Shown: positions 33,629 through 41,013 of the stretch, in pieces
Position numbering within the stretch: position 1 is the first letter of the stretch
Layout of the letters: each line of letters opens with the position of its first letter
Assembly (NCBI GenBank): GCA_947088675.1
Contig: CAMUHN010000020.1
Coordinates: 1 to 43,758, forward strand
Source: an uncultured Roseburia sp.
GTDB taxonomy: Bacteria > Bacillota > Clostridia > Lachnospirales > Lachnospiraceae
Length of the DNA stretch: 43,758 bases
Reading direction: 5' to 3'
Position numbers and translations under genes: made by a program
The notes under the pieces: generated by a model
What the model saw: only the letters and a program-made list of their open reading frames with translations
What the model was told of the DNA's origin: nothing
The model's database searches: none

Positions 33629-33949
33629 TTAGTTTTTGAGCAGGTGTTTCATATGGTTTACAATCTTTTGGAGAATCAAATCATGTTCATCTTTGCTGCA
33701 GGATTTCATGTAAGATTCCAGGTGAAACGTGTATTTTTGTTCACCAGTGATCAGATAAGCTGGATCAATTTGATACATCTGATAAAGAGTTTGCATTTTT
33801 TCCGCAGATAGTCGATAAGTTCCGTTTTCCAGTTTCCGATAATGTACGGTTGATATGTTCAGTGTTTTTGCAAATTCTTCTATGGTATATCCATTTTGTA
33901 ATCTTGCATTTTGCAAGCGCATGCCAGTTTGAAAATTAAAATTATTCAT
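33629..33949 (-). CDS. XRE-type HTH regulator at left edge of island
   Basis: A 106-residue regulator. Residues about 8-62 form a Cro/C1-type helix-turn-helix (MRLQNARLQNGYTIEEFAKTLNI, STVHYRKLENGTYRLS). The C-terminal part (LITGEQ, then CSKDEHDLILQKIVNHMKHLLK) is helical. It is a clear paralogue of the regulator at 40474, sharing the LSAxKxxxLxQxYxIDxxxLxTG segment and a CS-xE...IxxIxxxMxxxLK tail. A perfect TTGACA lies upstream on the minus strand (34049-34044), but the -10 is ambiguous. Target sites unknown. Confidence 0.85.
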   Translation of the reverse strand: MNNFNFQTGMRLQNARLQNGYTIEEFAKTLNISTVHYRKLENGTYRLSAEKMQTLYQMYQIDPAYLITGEQKYTFHLESYMKSCSKDEHDLILQKIVNHMKHLLKN

Positions 33950-34259
33950 TTTCCGTAGTTTTCCTTTCTAGAAAGTTGAAATGACACAGACTGCAAAAGT
34001 GAACCGGAAAGAATACAATTTATTAAGTATAATATTTAATCTCTGTCAATTTCTACTTTTTATTCAAATCTAATATCAAAAAAATTTTGTAATATTCTTA
34101 TAATTGTCTAAAAACTTCTCTCAAATTGCGAAATATTAAAATTAAAAAGTTCTATAGATTTCTATTTTTGGATACGCTATACTGTGGTAGGAACGATAAT
34201 ACAAACTGGGCTTTCAAGCTTTTTAAAGGGTTTGAGGGAACGTAGAAAGGGGCATGAGA
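33950..34259. other. AT-rich divergent intergenic region (XRE / blaI)
   Basis: About 310 nt without a gene, markedly AT-rich. It holds the XRE promoter candidate (TTGACA on the minus strand at 34049) and a possible blaI -10 (TATACT at 34178-34183). I looked for a BlaI-type TACA-TGTA dyad and did not find a convincing one. Confidence 0.4.
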
Positions 34260-34631
34260 ATGGAAACGAACGATATTTCAACTTGCGAACGGCTCGTTAT
34301 GAAAGTCATCTGGGATTCTACAGAGGATTTGGCATTGCAGGAGATCATGGATAAAGTCAATCACGAGAACGGCAAGAGTTGGAAACCACAGACAGTTTCT
34401 ACTTTTTTGGCACGGCTGGTAAAGAAGGAATTTTTGACAGTTTATCGCAAAGGCCGCTATACCTATTATGTGCCTGCAGTCAGCAAAAAAGACTTTTGGA
34501 AAGCTACGATGGAAGAAAATGCAGCATATTTCGCACAGGGCGATATGGGAGATTTGGCATGTGCACTTTGCAAAGACATGCTGAGTGATGAACAGAGAAA
34601 GGAATTGCAGGAGGAAATAAACAAGTTATAA
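34260..34631 (+). CDS. BlaI/MecI-family repressor
   Basis: A 123-residue winged-helix repressor (Penicillinase_R family). The DNA-binding part (about 5-72) has ISTCERLVMKVIWDSTEDLALQEIMDKV, then KPQTVSTFLARLVKKEFLTVYRKGRYTYYVPAV; the C-terminal helices (75-123) give dimerisation. In known systems the partner M56 protease (BlaR1/MecR1) triggers proteolysis of this repressor. Two M56 genes lie downstream, so it is very probably their partner. I choose the ATG at 34260 (7 nt after AAGGGG) over the one at 34254. No beta-lactamase gene is in the window. Confidence 0.92.
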   Translation: METNDISTCERLVMKVIWDSTEDLALQEIMDKVNHENGKSWKPQTVSTFLARLVKKEFLTVYRKGRYTYYVPAVSKKDFWKATMEENAAYFAQGDMGDLACALCKDMLSDEQRKELQEEINKL

Positions 34632-34710
34632 AACAGATTGTCAGGTTCTCGTGCAGGAGTTCAAGATGTGGAAGGCTTCTGCACGTTAGACATTTTTATC
34701 ATAGATTTTG

Positions 34711-34760
34711 ATTTTCGATCACTTTCCGGCTACAGGCTCTTCAGAAAAGTGAGTTGAAAA
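34711..34760 (+). other. Hairpin between blaI and the exported-protein gene
   Basis: ATTTTCGATCACTTT pairs, with one bulge and mismatch, with AAAGTGAGTTGAAAAT. No T run follows. It could end the blaI transcript or be an operator-like structure. Confidence 0.3.
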
Positions 34761-34858
34761 TAAACGTTACTTTAGAGAATATTTTATAAGCCATTGTTGA
34801 AAACCATAATAGTATTCCTTGTTATGAGATGAACCGTTGTAAAGAGAAAGGAGATTCA

Positions 34859-35407
34859 ATGATAATGAGAAAACATATGAAGACAAAACAGATGGCAAAA
34901 GGTTTGGCGGTACTTTTTACTGCTTCATTTGTAATGATGAATACGGCATCTGCATTCGCCGCTGAGACAGGCGAGGCCGAGGCTGTGACAGAGGAAGCAG
35001 AAGAAACAACTGCATTGCAACCGTTTTTTATATCCGGTGAAGATGACAACACCTATACAGGGATTGATTATTCCCAGAACGAATTAGATGGGATTATGCC
35101 GTTGTTGAATCCCAATGAAATAGCTTCGGGTACATGGACAATTGACCCGGGGAAACGTCACGTGTCGGATGTAATGTATTTAAAGGCAGGACAGAAAGTG
35201 TCTATGGCAGCAATGATAGTTCCTACTACGGTTAAGTGCTGGCTTGGATTGATGAGAGATAGTAATGGCGATGTGCAGTGTATAGAAGGTACTAAGTCTC
35301 TTGCATATACATTTGAAGCACCAGCTAATGGTAATTATCGTGTTATGGTTCAGAATAAAGGTACTGGGCAAACTGTTACAGCATCTGTTACATATTATTA
35401 TCATTAG
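34859..35407 (+). CDS. Exported protein sharing a domain with the M56 ectodomains
   Basis: A 182-residue secreted protein. A signal peptide (1-34; cleavage after SAFA) is followed by an acidic linker (35-85, many Glu and Thr) and a C-terminal beta-rich domain (about 88-182). That domain is clearly homologous to the C-termini of both M56 proteins: KAGQKVSMAAMIVPTTVKCWLGLM here against KKGQYITINGVIMPDTENCWIGII and ERGQFFTINGVVMPDTKVCRVGII, and YRVMVQNKGTGQTVTASV against YQIFIQNKGEKDIFASV. Two cysteines (127 and 141) might form a disulfide. The start at 34859 follows AAAGGAG. A weak promoter (TTGAAA, 17, TGTTAT at 34797-34825) precedes it. No known family is recognised. Confidence 0.8.
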   Translation: MIMRKHMKTKQMAKGLAVLFTASFVMMNTASAFAAETGEAEAVTEEAEETTALQPFFISGEDDNTYTGIDYSQNELDGIMPLLNPNEIASGTWTIDPGKRHVSDVMYLKAGQKVSMAAMIVPTTVKCWLGLMRDSNGDVQCIEGTKSLAYTFEAPANGNYRVMVQNKGTGQTVTASVTYYYH

Positions 35408-35580
35408 AAAGTGTATGTTAGTATTAAGAAATGAGTAATCGGTCAGCGATTTGATAGAGGATTTAAGTTATTTGTTGAAAATGGGGTGTATCCCCTTTAT
35501 ATTTTATGATAAAGTACTACATATATAATAATTGGCTGTATTTAAATAAAATATTCTTGAATTAAAGTATGGAGTAACGG

Positions 35581-35613
35581 AAAAAGAACGGTGGATTAGC
35601 ACTGTTCTTTTTT
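35581..35613 (+). terminator. Terminator upstream of the first M56 gene
   Basis: AAAAAGAACGGTG pairs with CACTGTTCTTTTT (13 bp, one wobble), followed by T. Confidence 0.75.
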
Positions 35614-35643
35614 AAAAATAAAAAATGTTTTTAATATGCTTAG

Positions 35644-35671
35644 TTGAAAAAAATAAAAAACATATTATAAT
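35644..35671 (+). promoter_or_regulatory. Promoter of the first M56 gene
   Basis: TTGAAA, a 16-nt spacer and TATAAT; the GTTGAAAA form of the -35 recurs at 34754, 34797 and 35475 in this island. Confidence 0.6.
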
Positions 35672-35730
35672 TAAAGTGAGAGGTTAGAAAGATATCGTTT
35701 TTAGTGATTCTTGGGGAGGCATAAGACATA

Positions 35731-37143
35731 ATGTTTAGTCTGGGTGGTCAGATTTTTATCGCATTTATTTTAATGATGATGACAGGTTTTATTTCAAATA
35801 TAATATGGTGGATTTTATATAGAAAGATGAAGAAGCAGGTATCTAAAATAGCATGTAATACGCTGCGCTGTGTGTGTTTGTTTTATATTGTTCCGATAGG
35901 ATATCTTTTGATTAATCTGATAAAGAGAGATGGATATTTACAAGGGGATCAATTGTGGCAATTGAACTTTCGTGTTACTGAAACGATGGGAGTCAGTATG
36001 TGTGTCTTTTTGATCCTTTGGATGGGGATAACGATATTTAAGGTGGGAAAAAGATTTATTCTATTAAGACAGTATAATATCGGTAATTTACCAGAAGAGA
36101 GTATGCAGGCTGTGAAAGTGTTTAAAGAGGCTAAAAGCAAATTAAAAATAAATGGGTTTGTAAGTATTCATCGAAATGACATGGTCAAAGGACCAAGATT
36201 ACATGGGGTTGTTCACGGTAGAATAGTTTTGCCTTTTCATATGTATACAAATGATCAGTTGAAAGTGATTTACAGTCATGAGCTAATGCATTTTAAACAT
36301 CATGACCTTTTTTATAAATATTGCAGTGTCCTGGTTTCTGGGATGTTGTGGATGTTTAAAGGTGTTTCAGAATTTAGAAATAAAATGTTAGATGAATTAT
36401 GTGAATACCATTGTGATTTAAGCACTATAGTTGTATTGAATGAAGATATGAGTGCCAGACAATATTTTAATAATATTGTAGAAAGTACAAAGAAACGTGA
36501 CAAACGAGGAGAGCATGAACACCTGATTGTAGAACTTAATAAGGACTCCCTACAGATAAAGCGGAGAATACACTATATAGAAAGATATGAGGACATAGAA
36601 CAAAAATCTTCAAAATTAGTTTTTCTGGTAACATTGTTGTTTGTGATTTTAAATATGACTATATCTTATATTACGGGATATGGGATGGCAGAATTAAATG
36701 ATTTAATTTATCAAAATACAGAGAAAATTAATGTGATTCAACGAGATGAATATTTAAAGAATGTTTTATTGTTTGATGCAATGAATTATACAGTGTCAAA
36801 TGAAATATCTATGATAAATGAAGGAATGCTTACTACATTGGATTATGGAAATATTATTAAAATGGAGTGGCAAATTGAATCAAATAGTAGTTGTATATCG
36901 GATTTTGTTCATATGAAAAAAGGACAATATATAACTATAAATGGTGTAATTATGCCAGATACTGAAAATTGTTGGATTGGCATTATTAGTGAGAGAGGTG
37001 ATTGCATGGGATACATGGAAGTAAAAGAAATTTTTGAGGGTGAAGCTGTGGTGCAGAAAGATGGAGAATATCAGATCTTTATACAGAATAAAGGTGAAAA
37101 AGATATTTTTGCTTCGGTTAATGTTTTTATGAATATAAAGTAA
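35731..37143 (+). CDS. M56 (BlaR1/MecR1-type) membrane metalloprotease, copy 1
   Basis: A 470-residue sensor protease. It has three N-terminal membrane helices (about 7-30, 45-64, 87-104), a cytoplasmic gluzincin domain with H183-ELM-H187 and E225 in CEYHCD (zinc ligands), a fourth helix (about 296-316) and an extracellular tail. The four-helix topology is that of BlaR1. The tail (about 372-470) is not a penicillin-binding domain; it matches the C-terminal domain of the exported protein at 34859 (MPDTENCWIGI, YQIFIQNKG). GGGGAGG precedes the ATG. By analogy it senses an outside signal and cleaves the BlaI-type repressor. The gene is strongly AT-rich (about 25% GC in a sampled 60-nt line), unlike the flanks. 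Confidence 0.88.
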   Translation: MFSLGGQIFIAFILMMMTGFISNIIWWILYRKMKKQVSKIACNTLRCVCLFYIVPIGYLLINLIKRDGYLQGDQLWQLNFRVTETMGVSMCVFLILWMGITIFKVGKRFILLRQYNIGNLPEESMQAVKVFKEAKSKLKINGFVSIHRNDMVKGPRLHGVVHGRIVLPFHMYTNDQLKVIYSHELMHFKHHDLFYKYCSVLVSGMLWMFKGVSEFRNKMLDELCEYHCDLSTIVVLNEDMSARQYFNNIVESTKKRDKRGEHEHLIVELNKDSLQIKRRIHYIERYEDIEQKSSKLVFLVTLLFVILNMTISYITGYGMAELNDLIYQNTEKINVIQRDEYLKNVLLFDAMNYTVSNEISMINEGMLTTLDYGNIIKMEWQIESNSSCISDFVHMKKGQYITINGVIMPDTENCWIGIISERGDCMGYMEVKEIFEGEAVVQKDGEYQIFIQNKGEKDIFASVNVFMNIK

Positions 37144-37180
37144 AAGAACTATAGTTATTAAGAAATGGAAGATTAGAAAA

Positions 37181-37723
37181 GTGAATGCACAGAAATTTAT
37201 CGATGAATTACAATTGTGGTCGCATGAAATTACAATAGAGCAATATAACGAAATTCCGGAGGAGTCAAATATAGAAGTTTACGATGGGTTTATTCGTAGT
37301 AAAACATCTTTAACACAAGAACATCAGACAATTTTGATTGAAATTTCTTCTTTGATAAATATTTATCTTAAAGCTAATAGAAGCTCCAAAAAGGTTTTTA
37401 TTGGTCCTTTTGATGTACAATTGTGTGACAGGCCTCTTATAATTGTTAAACCGGATATTATGATTATTTCTGATGTACATAAATTGGGAAAAACAGGATG
37501 TAATGGTGCGCCAGACTGTATTATTGAAATTGTTTCCCCAAATAGTTTAATAGATGATTATATAAAAAAATTTTATTATTATAAAAAATATAAAGTTTGT
37601 GAATATTGGATAGTAGATTATGAGAGCAAAGTAATAACGGTTGACTATTTTGAGAAGAATTTTCTTAATATACAATATGATTTTTATTCTAAAATAAAAG
37701 TAAATATTTTAGGCGATTTATAA
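37181..37723 (+). CDS. Uma2-family (DUF820) putative nuclease
   Basis: A 180-residue PD-(D/E)xK-type protein. The hallmark Uma2 order is present: YEVYDGFI-like start (IEVYDGFIRSK), VKPDIMIISD (about 90-99), GAPDCIIEIVSPNS (about 109-122) and YYKKYKVCEYWIVDYESKVI. The catalytic D and E-x-V/I residues appear intact. The family is widespread and mostly uncharacterised. The start is a GTG with only a weak ribosome site. The gene is very AT-rich (about 12% GC in one sampled 60-nt line) and sits between the two M56 genes, which may reflect later insertion. Confidence 0.82.
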   Translation: MNAQKFIDELQLWSHEITIEQYNEIPEESNIEVYDGFIRSKTSLTQEHQTILIEISSLINIYLKANRSSKKVFIGPFDVQLCDRPLIIVKPDIMIISDVHKLGKTGCNGAPDCIIEIVSPNSLIDDYIKKFYYYKKYKVCEYWIVDYESKVITVDYFEKNFLNIQYDFYSKIKVNILGDL

Positions 37724-37778
37724 ATTGATTTTTCCCAAATTATAACAGGATAATTATTAGTTGAGAGGTAAATTTGAG

Positions 37779-39182
37779 ATGCTAAATTTGTGTTGCCAAT
37801 TTTTTATTGCATTTTTCTTGATGATGTTAACTGGATTTGTTTTGGATATTATATGGAGATTTTTTTATTGGGTATTAAAAGTTAGATTGTCAGATACGGC
37901 ATGTACTACACTTCGCTTTGTATGTCTTTTTTATATTTTTCCTTTTGGTTTTGTTCTGAATAATTTACTTAATAAAAACGGGTACTTACAAGGAGATCAG
38001 ATCTGGCAGTTAAATTTTCGCAGTACAACAATTATGGCTGTTGTTGTTTTGGTATTATTCATATGTTGGATTGGTATGGCTGTGTATATTCATTTTAAAT
38101 ACAATGTTAAAGATAAGAGAATTACTGTTTTTGATATTCCGGAAGAGGATCCAGATGCAAGGATTATTTTTAATCGTGCAAAGAAACGATTAAGAGTGAT
38201 TTGGCCAATTGAAATATATCGTAGTAATACAGTTCCAGATCCTCGAATAGAGGGAACATTCTGTAATAGAATTACACTACCTTACCGTTTGTATTCAAGT
38301 GATCAATTACAGATAATTTATTATCATGAACTGATACATTATAAACATCATGACATATTTTTTAAACAGTGTAGTGCGTTTGCAGGAATGATGCTGGTTT
38401 TTGAAAAATTTGCCGAGCATCGAAATGATGTTCTTGACAATTTGTGTGAGTATCATTGCGATTGCAGTACTATAAGAGCATTAAGAGGTCAAATGGATGC
38501 GCGCGGATATTTTAATTTTGTATTAGCATGCACTAGATCATCTGAAAAGAAAAAAAGAGATCATACCGTTGCGAATCTGGCTATAGATTCTACTGATTTA
38601 AAACATAGGATTGACTTCATAAATGAACGAAAACAATTAACCTTTTGTAATAAATGTTTTAATGCTTTTATATCATTATGTTTTGTTATTTTTAGTATAA
38701 TAATTTCTTATGTATTGGGAAGTAGGTTGTCATTTCTATATGATAGTATTTATGAGACGACAGAATATGTTGAAGTTAAAGAAAAACGAGAATTTGATGA
38801 ACCGGTTTTATCTTATAATAAATGGGGTAACACTTCAGCAGAATTCACAGCTATAAATGAAAAATTATTTACAAATACTAATACAGGTATCATAACAATG
38901 GAGGTAGTTCCTTTGGAATCAAATACATATTATGTTTCAGAAAGTATGTGTCTGGAAAGAGGACAATTTTTTACGATAAATGGCGTAGTTATGCCAGATA
39001 CAAAAGTTTGCAGAGTTGGAATTATTAATGAGGCAAATAGCGAATACAGTTATATTGATGTGAGTTCTGCGTTTGAGAATGAGTTTACAATACAGGAGCA
39101 AGGGCAATATAGATTCTTTGTTCAGAATCAGGGAGATGAAACTTTTTCTGTATCAGCAAATATTATTATCAATGAGCAATAA
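37779..39182 (+). CDS. M56 (BlaR1/MecR1-type) membrane metalloprotease, copy 2
   Basis: A 467-residue paralogue of the protein at 35731, alignable without gaps over the first 190 residues. It has three N-terminal helices, a shared NGYLQGDQxWQLNFR segment, a zinc site H183-ELI-H187 with E224 in CEYHCD, a fourth helix (about 294-314), and an extracellular tail (about 370-467) homologous to the exported protein (VVMPDTKVCRVGI, YRFFVQNQG). The second tail cysteine present in copy 1 is missing here, so any disulfide is not shared. I start at the ATG at 37779 after GAGAGG; the track-length frame would begin at a TTG. It presumably senses a related but distinct signal. Confidence 0.88.
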   Translation: MLNLCCQFFIAFFLMMLTGFVLDIIWRFFYWVLKVRLSDTACTTLRFVCLFYIFPFGFVLNNLLNKNGYLQGDQIWQLNFRSTTIMAVVVLVLFICWIGMAVYIHFKYNVKDKRITVFDIPEEDPDARIIFNRAKKRLRVIWPIEIYRSNTVPDPRIEGTFCNRITLPYRLYSSDQLQIIYYHELIHYKHHDIFFKQCSAFAGMMLVFEKFAEHRNDVLDNLCEYHCDCSTIRALRGQMDARGYFNFVLACTRSSEKKKRDHTVANLAIDSTDLKHRIDFINERKQLTFCNKCFNAFISLCFVIFSIIISYVLGSRLSFLYDSIYETTEYVEVKEKREFDEPVLSYNKWGNTSAEFTAINEKLFTNTNTGIITMEVVPLESNTYYVSESMCLERGQFFTINGVVMPDTKVCRVGIINEANSEYSYIDVSSAFENEFTIQEQGQYRFFVQNQGDETFSVSANIIINEQ

Positions 39183-39336: not shown

Positions 39337-40242
39337 ATGGAGAAAGAAAACAGAAAGATAAGACCGGATGAGATCTGGGAGAGTTTAGGAATTTCAAACG
39401 ATTTTATCTTTGGGAAAGTAATGCAGGATCCTGAATTGTGTCTTGAATTGCTGCGGAGGATATTGCCGGAGCTGGAGATCGAGAGGATTGAGTATCCGGA
39501 AGCGCAAAAGGCAATAAAGCCGGATATTGATGCAAAAAGTGTGCGTCTGGATGTATATGTAAGGGACGGAAAAGGAACTGTATATGATATAGAGATACAG
39601 GCTGCCAATACAAGAGAACTGCCGAAAAGAACACGGTATTACCAGAGTATGGTTGATATGCAGATGATAGACAGGGGAGAGCACTATAAGCAGCTAAAAC
39701 CATGTTATATCATATTTATCTGTTTGTTTGATATGTTCGAACAGGGGAGGCATAGATACACATTTGAGAATATGTGTAAAGAAGACAAAAGAATAAGGCT
39801 GGAAGACGGGGCGACAAAAATTTTTTTAAATGCGTCAGGCGATATGGATGATATAAGCGAGGAACTGAAAGTATTTCTGGAGTACGTTGGGGGAAAGGAA
39901 GCAAAGGATACCTACATAAAAGAACTGGACAAAGCCGTGGAGGAGGTAAAAAAGAACAGAGAATGGAGGCGTGAGTATATGACATTGCTAATGAGGGATG
40001 CAGAAAACCTGGAAGAGGGAATGCGCCGAGGACTGGAGAAAGGAATGAAACAGGGACTGGAGAAAGGAATGAAACAGGGACTGGAGAAAGGAATGAAACA
40101 GGGACTGGAGAAAGGCAAAATTTATGGAACGATATCGGTGTACCGGGAAATGGGGATGACGGAACAGGAAATTATAGAAAAAATACAGAAGAAGTTTAAC
40201 CTGACACCGGAGGAGGCGGCATCCAGTCTTTTAATGATATAA
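39337..40242 (+). CDS. Rpn-family recombination-promoting nuclease / PD-(D/E)xK transposase-like protein
   Basis: A 301-residue protein of the Rpn (PDDEXK transposase-like) family. The N-terminal nuclease domain has NDFIFGKVMQDPELCLELLRRILP, RLDVYVRD (D72) and YDIEIQAA (E86, Q88), all apparently intact, followed by RTRYYQSMVDMQMI. A helical region ends in a tandem GLEKGMKQ repeat and the C-terminal EQEIIEKIQKKFNLTPEEAASSLL tail seen in this family. GGGAGG precedes the ATG at 39337; the longer frame from 39253 lacks a site. A promoter (TTGTAC, 16, TATAGA) lies at 39257-39284. A decayed piece of a second copy follows directly. GC content returns towards the genome average here. Confidence 0.88.
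   Translation: MEKENRKIRPDEIWESLGISNDFIFGKVMQDPELCLELLRRILPELEIERIEYPEAQKAIKPDIDAKSVRLDVYVRDGKGTVYDIEIQAANTRELPKRTRYYQSMVDMQMIDRGEHYKQLKPCYIIFICLFDMFEQGRHRYTFENMCKEDKRIRLEDGATKIFLNASGDMDDISEELKVFLEYVGGKEAKDTYIKELDKAVEEVKKNREWRREYMTLLMRDAENLEEGMRRGLEKGMKQGLEKGMKQGLEKGMKQGLEKGKIYGTISVYREMGMTEQEIIEKIQKKFNLTPEEAASSLLMI
40030..40119 (+). repeat. Tandem 24-bp repeat inside the Rpn-type gene
   Basis: Three identical 24-bp units (40030-40053, 40054-40077, 40078-40101), each encoding GLEKGMKQ, and a partial fourth. Exact identity suggests recent expansion by slippage. Confidence 0.95.
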
Positions 40243-40473: not shown

Positions 40474-40809
40474 TTATTTTTTCAGTTTAGCCGACATTGC
40501 TGCAAGAATACAGTCAATCCGTGCATTTTTCTCCTCGGGGCTGCAGTTTGTGAAGCAGCTTTCCGGATCGATTCTGCTGACTGTACGCGTACCTGTGACA
40601 AGCCAGGTGGCGTCAATGCTGTATTTTTGATTCAATAACAGCAGCTTAAAAGCTGATAGTCCGACTGCGCCGGATTCGTATTTATTATAATGATTTTCTG
40701 AGACGCCCAGCGCCGCAGCAAATTCTTCTTTTGTTTTTCCAAGCCGCAGCCTTGTTTCGCGCAGTCTCTTTCCGGACTGCAGTAAAATTTCTTTCTTTTG
40801 TTTTTTCAT
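40474..40809 (-). CDS. XRE-type HTH regulator at right edge of island
   Basis: A 111-residue regulator with a Cro/C1 helix-turn-helix (about 10-65: GKRLRETRLRLGKTKEEFAAALGV, SENHYNKYESGAVGLS) and a helical tail (NCSPEEKNARIDCILAAMSAKLKK). It is paralogous to the regulator at 33629. The start at 40809 follows GGAGC; the upstream open frame is non-coding leader. A good minus-strand promoter precedes it. Confidence 0.85.
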   Translation of the reverse strand: MKKQKKEILLQSGKRLRETRLRLGKTKEEFAAALGVSENHYNKYESGAVGLSAFKLLLLNQKYSIDATWLVTGTRTVSRIDPESCFTNCSPEEKNARIDCILAAMSAKLKK

Positions 40810-40840
40810 GTGAGCTCCATTCTGCTTCAGGTTATTTAAA

Positions 40841-40868
40841 ATGATAACATCTGAAAAGATAATTTGCA
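40841..40868 (-). promoter_or_regulatory. Promoter of the right-edge XRE gene
   Basis: On the minus strand TTGCAA (40868-40863), a 17-nt spacer and TATCAT (40846-40841). Confidence 0.6.
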
Positions 40869-40869
40869 A

Positions 40870-41013
40870 TAAAAAGCAGGTCTGCGATTCACCATTTTTA
40901 ATGGCGGGCGATATTTTAGTACCAGAAAGTCTCGCTTCTTTTGGTGGCAGCATGCACGGACCTTATCCCGCACCGGGTTACATAGCATCCGTCTGTAAAG
41001 TAATTTTTATCTG
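40870..41013. other. Unexplained stretch upstream of a terminator
   Basis: No convincing gene. A plus-strand frame through here has no ribosome site. Because a strong plus-strand terminator follows, a short RNA or the end of a lost gene is possible. Confidence 0.3.

Follow-up and report, generated by a model that had tools for sequence, protein, structure and literature searches.

Why should a locus that already carries a BlaI-type repressor and two M56 membrane proteases also encode the external domain of those proteases as an exported protein of its own? The question is raised by positions 34,260 to 39,182 of contig CAMUHN010000020.1 (assembly GCA_947088675.1) from an uncultured Roseburia sp., a stretch of 43,758 nucleotides that was analysed as a whole and that we call the window. 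Our reading is that the locus may be a BlaR1-type BlaI–M56 signalling system in which a jelly-roll sensor stands in for the penicillin-binding domain, and that the exported protein, EXP, would be this sensor encoded alone. Taken whole, this reading could well be right, although we hold it with reserve. Its structural and evolutionary part, drawn from the descent, colinearity, co-occurrence, recurrence and motif distribution of the sequences, is very probable; its functional part, in which cleavage, secretion, ligand binding, control by BlaI and the setting of a threshold would join these proteins into a circuit, is more tentative. The original prediction named a BlaI repressor, a signal-peptide protein and two M56 proteases, and all of these are present. 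Their features, all on the plus strand, are as follows.

34254..34631, +, blaI-type repressor, 125 amino acids (aa) (Pfam Penicillinase_R, 2.1e-22)
34859..35407, +, exported protein (EXP), 182 aa from ATG 34859, the open reading frame (ORF) opening at 34829; in order, a predicted signal peptide colinear with the last M56 helix, an A-x-A site (SAFA/AE), a linker and a jelly-roll sensor domain
35114..35404, +, sensor-type domain of EXP (GOLD/PPC/PliG-like jelly roll)
35731..37143, +, M56a sensor protease, 470 aa (Pfam Peptidase_M56, 9.1e-17)
36847..37140, +, M56a tail, the sensor domain (alignment)
37779..39182, +, M56b sensor protease, the ORF opening at TTG 37761 (Pfam Peptidase_M56, 6.5e-16)
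38886..39179, +, M56b tail, the sensor domain (alignment)

The exported protein as an M56 sensor half

To place EXP, we compared it with the proteins of its own genome and with M56 relatives. A domain of about 95 residues is common to EXP and both M56 tails, as predicted (BLASTP: M56a 5e-16, M56b 6e-10, each E-value being that of one single comparison). A search of the whole genome with EXP at E-values up to 1 recovered the query and both M56 tails (9.6e-12 and 1.4e-6), and the family profile added one further distant copy of the domain on contig C19 (8.3e-6). The similarity extends beyond the domain. The M56-family profile covers residues 12-191 of the EXP ORF at 1e-46, corresponding to model positions 282-469, and the alignment of EXP to its relatives begins just upstream of the last M56 transmembrane helix and runs to the M56 end. 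In the tail, EXP is 47% identical to a Roseburia M56 protein (L042; the loci that we fetched carry L numbers), 25% to M56a and 24% to M56b. A tree of this region placed EXP, M56a and M56b within one clade of 21 rows (98/99*), with M56a and M56b as sisters (100/100*); the placement of EXP inside the clade is open. Because of the colinearity, the profile coverage, the identity to L042 and the shared clade, we conclude from these sequences that EXP is the sensor half of an M56 protein (last helix and ectodomain, no protease) in the slot that a whole M56 gene occupies in relatives. Colinearity from the last helix onward rules out an unrelated product with a look-alike domain, and the apparent descent from an M56 sensor argues for a split receptor and not for an effector to which a sensor later adapted.

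The gene has the parts expected of an exported protein: an intact frame, a ribosome-binding site (AAAGGAG at 34847-34853), a positively charged n-region, a hydrophobic core and the A-x-A site. Here and below, calls of signal peptides and ribosome-binding sites rely on inspection by eye and on hydropathy. The start is most likely ATG 34859, downstream of that site, and not 34829. We also considered a canonical M56 partner elsewhere in the genome and rejected it, there being four M56 matches in all, of which the window accounts for two (genome completeness 87.6%). The distant copy on C19 (L097:7829-8347) is free-standing, likewise of the exported kind, and adjoins a 105-aa exported-looking protein; across the 61 further genus genomes it has a single, weak match (9.4e-4), to an M56 tail, and no other kin.

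Both M56 proteins carry the predicted zinc-site motifs, HELMH / HELIH and CEYHCD, and are 40% identical to each other; M56b most likely starts at ATG 37779 and not at TTG 37761. Their four-helix topology, also part of the original prediction, rests on profile alignment to BlaR1, in which positions 23-314 of the family profile align to chain 8exp at 9.4e-17. The likeness ends at the sensor. NCBIfam blaR1_generic scores M56a and M56b at 68.7 and 49.4 bits (cut-off 400), and the matches stop at model positions 346 and 390 of 585; a penicillin-binding sensor domain is lacking, the tail being another fold. Structural matches identify it as a beta-sandwich, a jelly roll of the kind seen in GOLD and PPC domains and in PliG inhibitors of g-type lysozyme, at 5-19% sequence identity over the 50 listed matches, and the PliG match combines fold similarity with a weak profile hit (E 0.029). 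No Pfam family exceeded its cut-off for EXP (best Fn3_arc, 0.031, 14.8 bits against 28.9 required). Among 38 family members scanned, PPC appeared below cut-off in 2 (best 0.0023), GOLD in 4 (best 0.0075) and Golvesin_C in 4 (best 0.0013). Function is not derivable from the jelly-roll fold.

The closest known systems are BlaI–BlaR1 and MecI–MecR1 of staphylococci and bacilli, in which a BlaI-type repressor likewise adjoins a membrane protease of the M56 type whose C-terminal sensor lies outside the cell. Unlike these, the window locus has a jelly-roll sensor, a separate gene for the sensor domain with its own predicted signal peptide, and no beta-lactamase or penicillin-binding protein match among the 26 window proteins scanned with Pfam, consistent with the predicted absence of a beta-lactamase. 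The excerpted text of PMC8457756 describes a system in which blaI is accompanied by a pair of BlaR1-like genes and by a hypothetical protein, with a small regulon and autoregulation; by that description it resembles the window locus in gene content. In the literature searched, mainly open-access, we found among the matches listed no account of a BlaI–M56 system with this sensor or of a secreted copy of a sensor.

A BlaI–M56 sensor family and its free sensor copies

We next asked how far the arrangement extends beyond the window. A first scan of genome contigs with M56a as the sole query gave no match; searched against 98 genomes, M56a had matches in 48 of them, and about 20 of its relatives within the genus are near full length. 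In the loci of these relatives blaI and M56 form a compact pair, frequently with a 14-base overlap. The domain is present in 26 of 62 genus genomes and in 31/298 and 42/397 genomes of two family draws (own genome included; the second draw overlaps the first). The fetched loci yielded 109 tail-bearing M56 genes, or 98 after removal of 11 near-copies (≥95%); their ORFs were called by a simple script with unrefined starts, and because many flanks are short or stop where the contig does, free copies may be missed. The original prediction had proposed a profile check for co-occurrence of the domain with BlaI and M56 genes in other genomes, and the result supports it: blaI lies within 1.5 kb on the same strand for 91 of the 98 genes. 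As judged from these sequences, the tail domain belongs to a BlaI–M56 sensor family of Lachnospiraceae.

Free copies of the domain recur beside blaI–M56 in L168, L169 (two copies), L170, L171, L172, L174 and L188; with the window this makes eight loci in eight genomes and eight genus codes, which rules out an arrangement unique to the window. In L188 the gene order (blaI, free copy, M56) is that of the window; in L171 the free copy precedes blaI, and in L168, L169, L170, L172 and L174 it follows M56. These adjacent copies account for 9 of the 20 free-standing ORFs that we counted. Four others are M56 fragments, truncated where the contig ends (L062, L181) or broken (L180, L192), and seven lie alone (L173, L175-L179 and L189). 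By eye, a clear ribosome-binding site precedes the copies in L172, L173, L174 and L188, and EXP and the L168 copy have one before an inner start.

A free copy and the M56 tail of its own locus share 24-37% identity in six of the eight loci (window 29/94 and 24/93; L188 34/92; others 28/93, 25/90, 21/88 and 26/83) and 78% in L169. L174 is the weakest of the eight, its M56 tail barely recognised and 8/46 positions shared. Between the two L169 free copies dN was 0.085 and dS 1.89 (80 codons, NG86), and between these copies and their own M56 dN was 0.12 and 0.13, with dS 2.48 or undefined; dN so far below dS therefore speaks for purifying selection.

The trees suggest that free copies were gained or lost several times. 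On the M56 tree, a quick tree with likelihood support alone, presence of a free copy requires 8 changes (gains or losses), of which starred branches force at least 5, compared with a mean of 8.8 changes for shuffled labels. A tree of the domain, which has few columns and many open forks and includes the broken L180, needs 12 changes of the free-standing label, at least 4 of them forced; the label is barely more clustered than chance (35/500 shuffles as low), and in L171 (98/85*) and L169 (99/89*) the free copies branch with their own locus's M56.

Two further genes on the plus strand lie within or beside the window locus, the first being an addition to the gene list of the original prediction.

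37181..37723, +, Uma2 family putative endonuclease, flanked by M56a and M56b (Pfam Uma2, 3.8e-20)
39337..40242, +, PD-(D/E)XK transposase-family protein adjoining the locus (Pfam PDDEXK_2, 5.1e-18)

The latter ORF opens at TTG 39253, and ATG 39337, preceded by GGGAGG, is the start as judged from the sequence; the protein is probably outside the circuit. Because of the low GC of M56a (31%), Uma2 (27%) and M56b (31%) compared with blaI (42%), EXP (41%) and the window (42.5%), M56a–Uma2–M56b is likely to be an AT-rich insert adjoining the transposase-family gene. Two Cro/C1-type helix-turn-helix genes on the minus strand (33629-33949 and 40474-40953), similar by eye, bracket the locus. The original prediction also raised a defence system. 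EXP, M56a and M56b had no PADLOC match at E-values up to 0.01 and BlaI matched weakly (best 0.00096), which does not bear this out; an antimicrobial-response role is open. Uma2 matched the PADLOC candidate PDC-S03 (1.1e-32), and the PD-(D/E)XK protein matched C3a178 (3.6e-5).

A mobile origin was rejected, with no M56-family relatives in viral contigs and no EXP relatives in phages; seven plasmid records carry distant M56 proteins. In Roseburia (L038-L051, L099), the blaI–M56 pair frequently lies among surface-polysaccharide genes, named by eye. A convergent gene with a metallo-beta-lactamase fold stands beside the Roseburia pair (the cluster occurs in 14/53 loci; Pfam Lactamase_B 2.5e-6 for the one tested). 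In the window's own genome such a gene is on another contig, C31 (L147:5418-13380), with glycosyltransferase-like genes and no M56 there; an AraC-like gene (by eye) fills the adjoining place.

The A-x-A site and a proposed mechanism

Staphylococcus aureus BlaR1 has a demonstrated signal-peptidase site between its last helix and its sensor; SpsB cleaves there, the sensor is shed, and shedding has been proposed to serve receptor turnover (PMC9834060, excerpted text). We found an A-x-A-like motif at the end of the last helix, where this site would lie, in 77 of the 98 family M56 genes (strict rule). The motif is missing from M56a and M56b, whose last helices end in SYITG and SYVLG, and present in EXP. 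Across the family, it was kept by 3 of 9 M56 genes with a free copy and by 74 of 89 without, so that loss stands at 6/9 against 15/89 (Fisher p 0.0027). Without L191, whose helix could not be aligned, the group lacking a copy shows 14/88 (p 0.0021), and a looser motif gives 5/9 against 9/89 (p 0.0026). All five adjacent free copies with an alignable M56-like helix (EXP, L168, L169, L171 and L188) keep A-x-A. We regard the association between a free copy and motif loss in the M56 partner as suggestive.

These observations are consistent with the following model. An M56 gene in the blaI-proximal position would have lost its protease, or a copy would have lacked one, and the last helix of the truncated protein would now serve as the cleavable signal peptide of EXP. 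In ordinary family members, signal peptidase would shed the ectodomain at the A-x-A after the last helix, as SpsB does with S. aureus BlaR1. At the window locus the shed form would be made from its own gene, and M56a and M56b, having lost the site, would stay intact. The soluble domain might compete for, present or buffer the ligand, or associate with the sensors, and would thereby set the threshold at which M56 cleaves BlaI. That sensor and exported product bind the same ligand or each other was part of the original prediction. The shared domain is there, and because it pairs with the sensor again in seven other loci, binding would be a reasonable expectation.

We note that some M56 proteins outside the family (L001:1483-3417, L138:5638-7197, L140:5644-7893, L032 and L034) have last helices that resemble signal peptides, with ends that are lipobox-like (LAGC, VAC, IAC) or A-x-A. 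Because of this resemblance, M56 ectodomains may be released or lipid-anchored in many such proteins.

Weighing the reading against its alternatives

Does BlaI control EXP, as the original prediction held? Seven Roseburia relatives (L039, L041, L042, L043, L044, L046 and L099) share an operator-like inverted repeat, CGTAGT-N3/4-ACTRCG, shortly upstream of blaI. A search of nine genomes found 8 sites in 7 genomes, 7 of them before blaI and one elsewhere; the reversed control pattern matched 15 times in the same nine genomes, and the motif had been defined on these very genomes. The staphylococcal BlaI consensus is TACANNTGTA, from which this repeat differs. The stretch WKPQTVSTFLARLVKK, which we take to be the recognition-helix region, is identical in window BlaI and several Roseburia relatives (alignment of relatives), yet the operator is missing: no match precedes EXP. 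Because the motif is absent from this genome, control of EXP by BlaI is open. Promoter-like and terminator-like sites were discarded as evidence, since the region has 37 promoter matches against 30.0 expected and 3 terminator matches against 1.9 expected; the promoter-like site at 34754-34783 is such a consensus match only.

A number of results weigh against the reading that we prefer. The repeat CGTAGT-N3/4-ACTRCG has no exact copy in the window's own genome, and a weight-matrix scan of 33950-35760 peaked at 8.4, compared with a shuffle mean of 8.0, with no site above the shuffles. For 89 of the 98 M56 genes there was no free copy in the fetched flanks. The idea of motif loss came from the window itself; with the window excluded, loss stands at 4/7 against 15/89 (p 0.027), or 3/7 against 9/89 with the looser motif (p 0.040), and with L174 also excluded at 3/6 against 15/89 (p 0.080; looser 2/6, p 0.142). 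A sign test on independent pairs, five on starred branches, had a median p of 0.5 and no power. The M56 proteins of L168, L169 and L172 retain the motif despite a free copy, some M56 proteins outside the family also end their last helix with A-x-A or a lipobox-like motif, and L180 (5844-6934) has, in the same position after blaI, an internally deleted M56 gene with stops, a plain remnant.

This last case bears on the alternative that fares best, in which EXP is a 3' fragment left behind when an M56 gene was deleted, open by chance and functionless, and M56a and M56b are later arrivals. EXP is colinear with the M56 C-terminus, as such a leftover would be, split M56 frames also occur in L182, L183, L190 and L192, and the species is represented by one genome. 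We nevertheless consider this unlikely: the EXP frame is intact, with a ribosome-binding site and a complete putative signal peptide, L188 has the same gene order, and dN/dS between the L169 free copies is far below 1. By eye we saw no 5' remnant of an M56 gene between blaI and EXP, although no search for one was made.

Rather improbable, in our judgement, is that EXP is a regulated product (an antimicrobial, inhibitor or surface protein) whose target the M56 ectodomain also recognises, with BlaI controlling its expression. We keep this under consideration because some loci have small ORFs and ABC transporter genes after M56. The slot there is filled in several loci by a small protein of unrelated sequence with a signal-peptide-like start; a highly variable small protein, then exported proteins or lipoproteins and ABC transporter genes, were seen in L133:7570-12901, L116:1722-6557, L135:3206-7268, L221:4282-6432 and L168:7264-12666 (Pfam ABC_tran in L133, L116 and L168). 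In L133 and L116 the small Sec-exported protein, large membrane protein and ABC ATPase of lactococcin 972-type clusters, such as that for mediterrocin in Mediterraneibacter gnavus (PMC12345188, excerpted text), come to mind, but the scanned proteins of these two loci lack a DUF1430 or lactococcin match and the window locus is not followed by such genes. A crude hydropathy test, run without a control, flagged in 24 of 98 cases an ORF of 60-260 aa downstream of M56 whose start is hydrophobic. These include clear non-exported proteins (L039, L056 and L202) and the free copies of L169, L170, L172 and L174 (the L168 copy failed the test); of ten other post-M56 ORFs compared with Pfam, nine had no match and one a sub-threshold match. 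The fold, too, resembles PliG lysozyme inhibitors and PPC domains. Against such a product, free copies appear to descend from the sensor on several branches, and EXP has neither an operator before it nor more than a consensus-level promoter match.

It is very unlikely that the free ectodomain is a structural subunit pairing with uncleavable M56 sensors to form a mixed receptor: BlaR1 does form a domain-swapped dimer (PMC9834060, excerpted text) and free copies adjoin an M56 gene, but the partners of most loci have diverged to 24-37% identity, with L169 (78%) and L174 (8/46) outside that range.

The reading of EXP as the sensor encoded alone thus stands, and in a stronger form than first stated: the sensor domain and a freed copy of it recur across genera, and the proposed mechanism is that of a soluble receptor, decoy or partner. 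With caution, we suggest that a soluble receptor may have arisen repeatedly in Lachnospiraceae, the sensor domain being split off or duplicated as a secreted protein and the membrane sensors then tending to lose their shedding site. The soluble cytokine receptors of animals would be a counterpart. If this is true, proteolytic shedding of the BlaR1 type would have been replaced by a gene. BlaR1 and MecR1 are known as drug sensors. The family described here comprises BlaI–M56 receptors of gut bacteria whose sensor is of another kind, and it includes natural examples of a sensor domain that is also encoded separately, beside a membrane form that lacks the site. The role of shedding would become testable through deletion of one small gene, in a genus of common gut commensals that offers a recognisable sensor domain.

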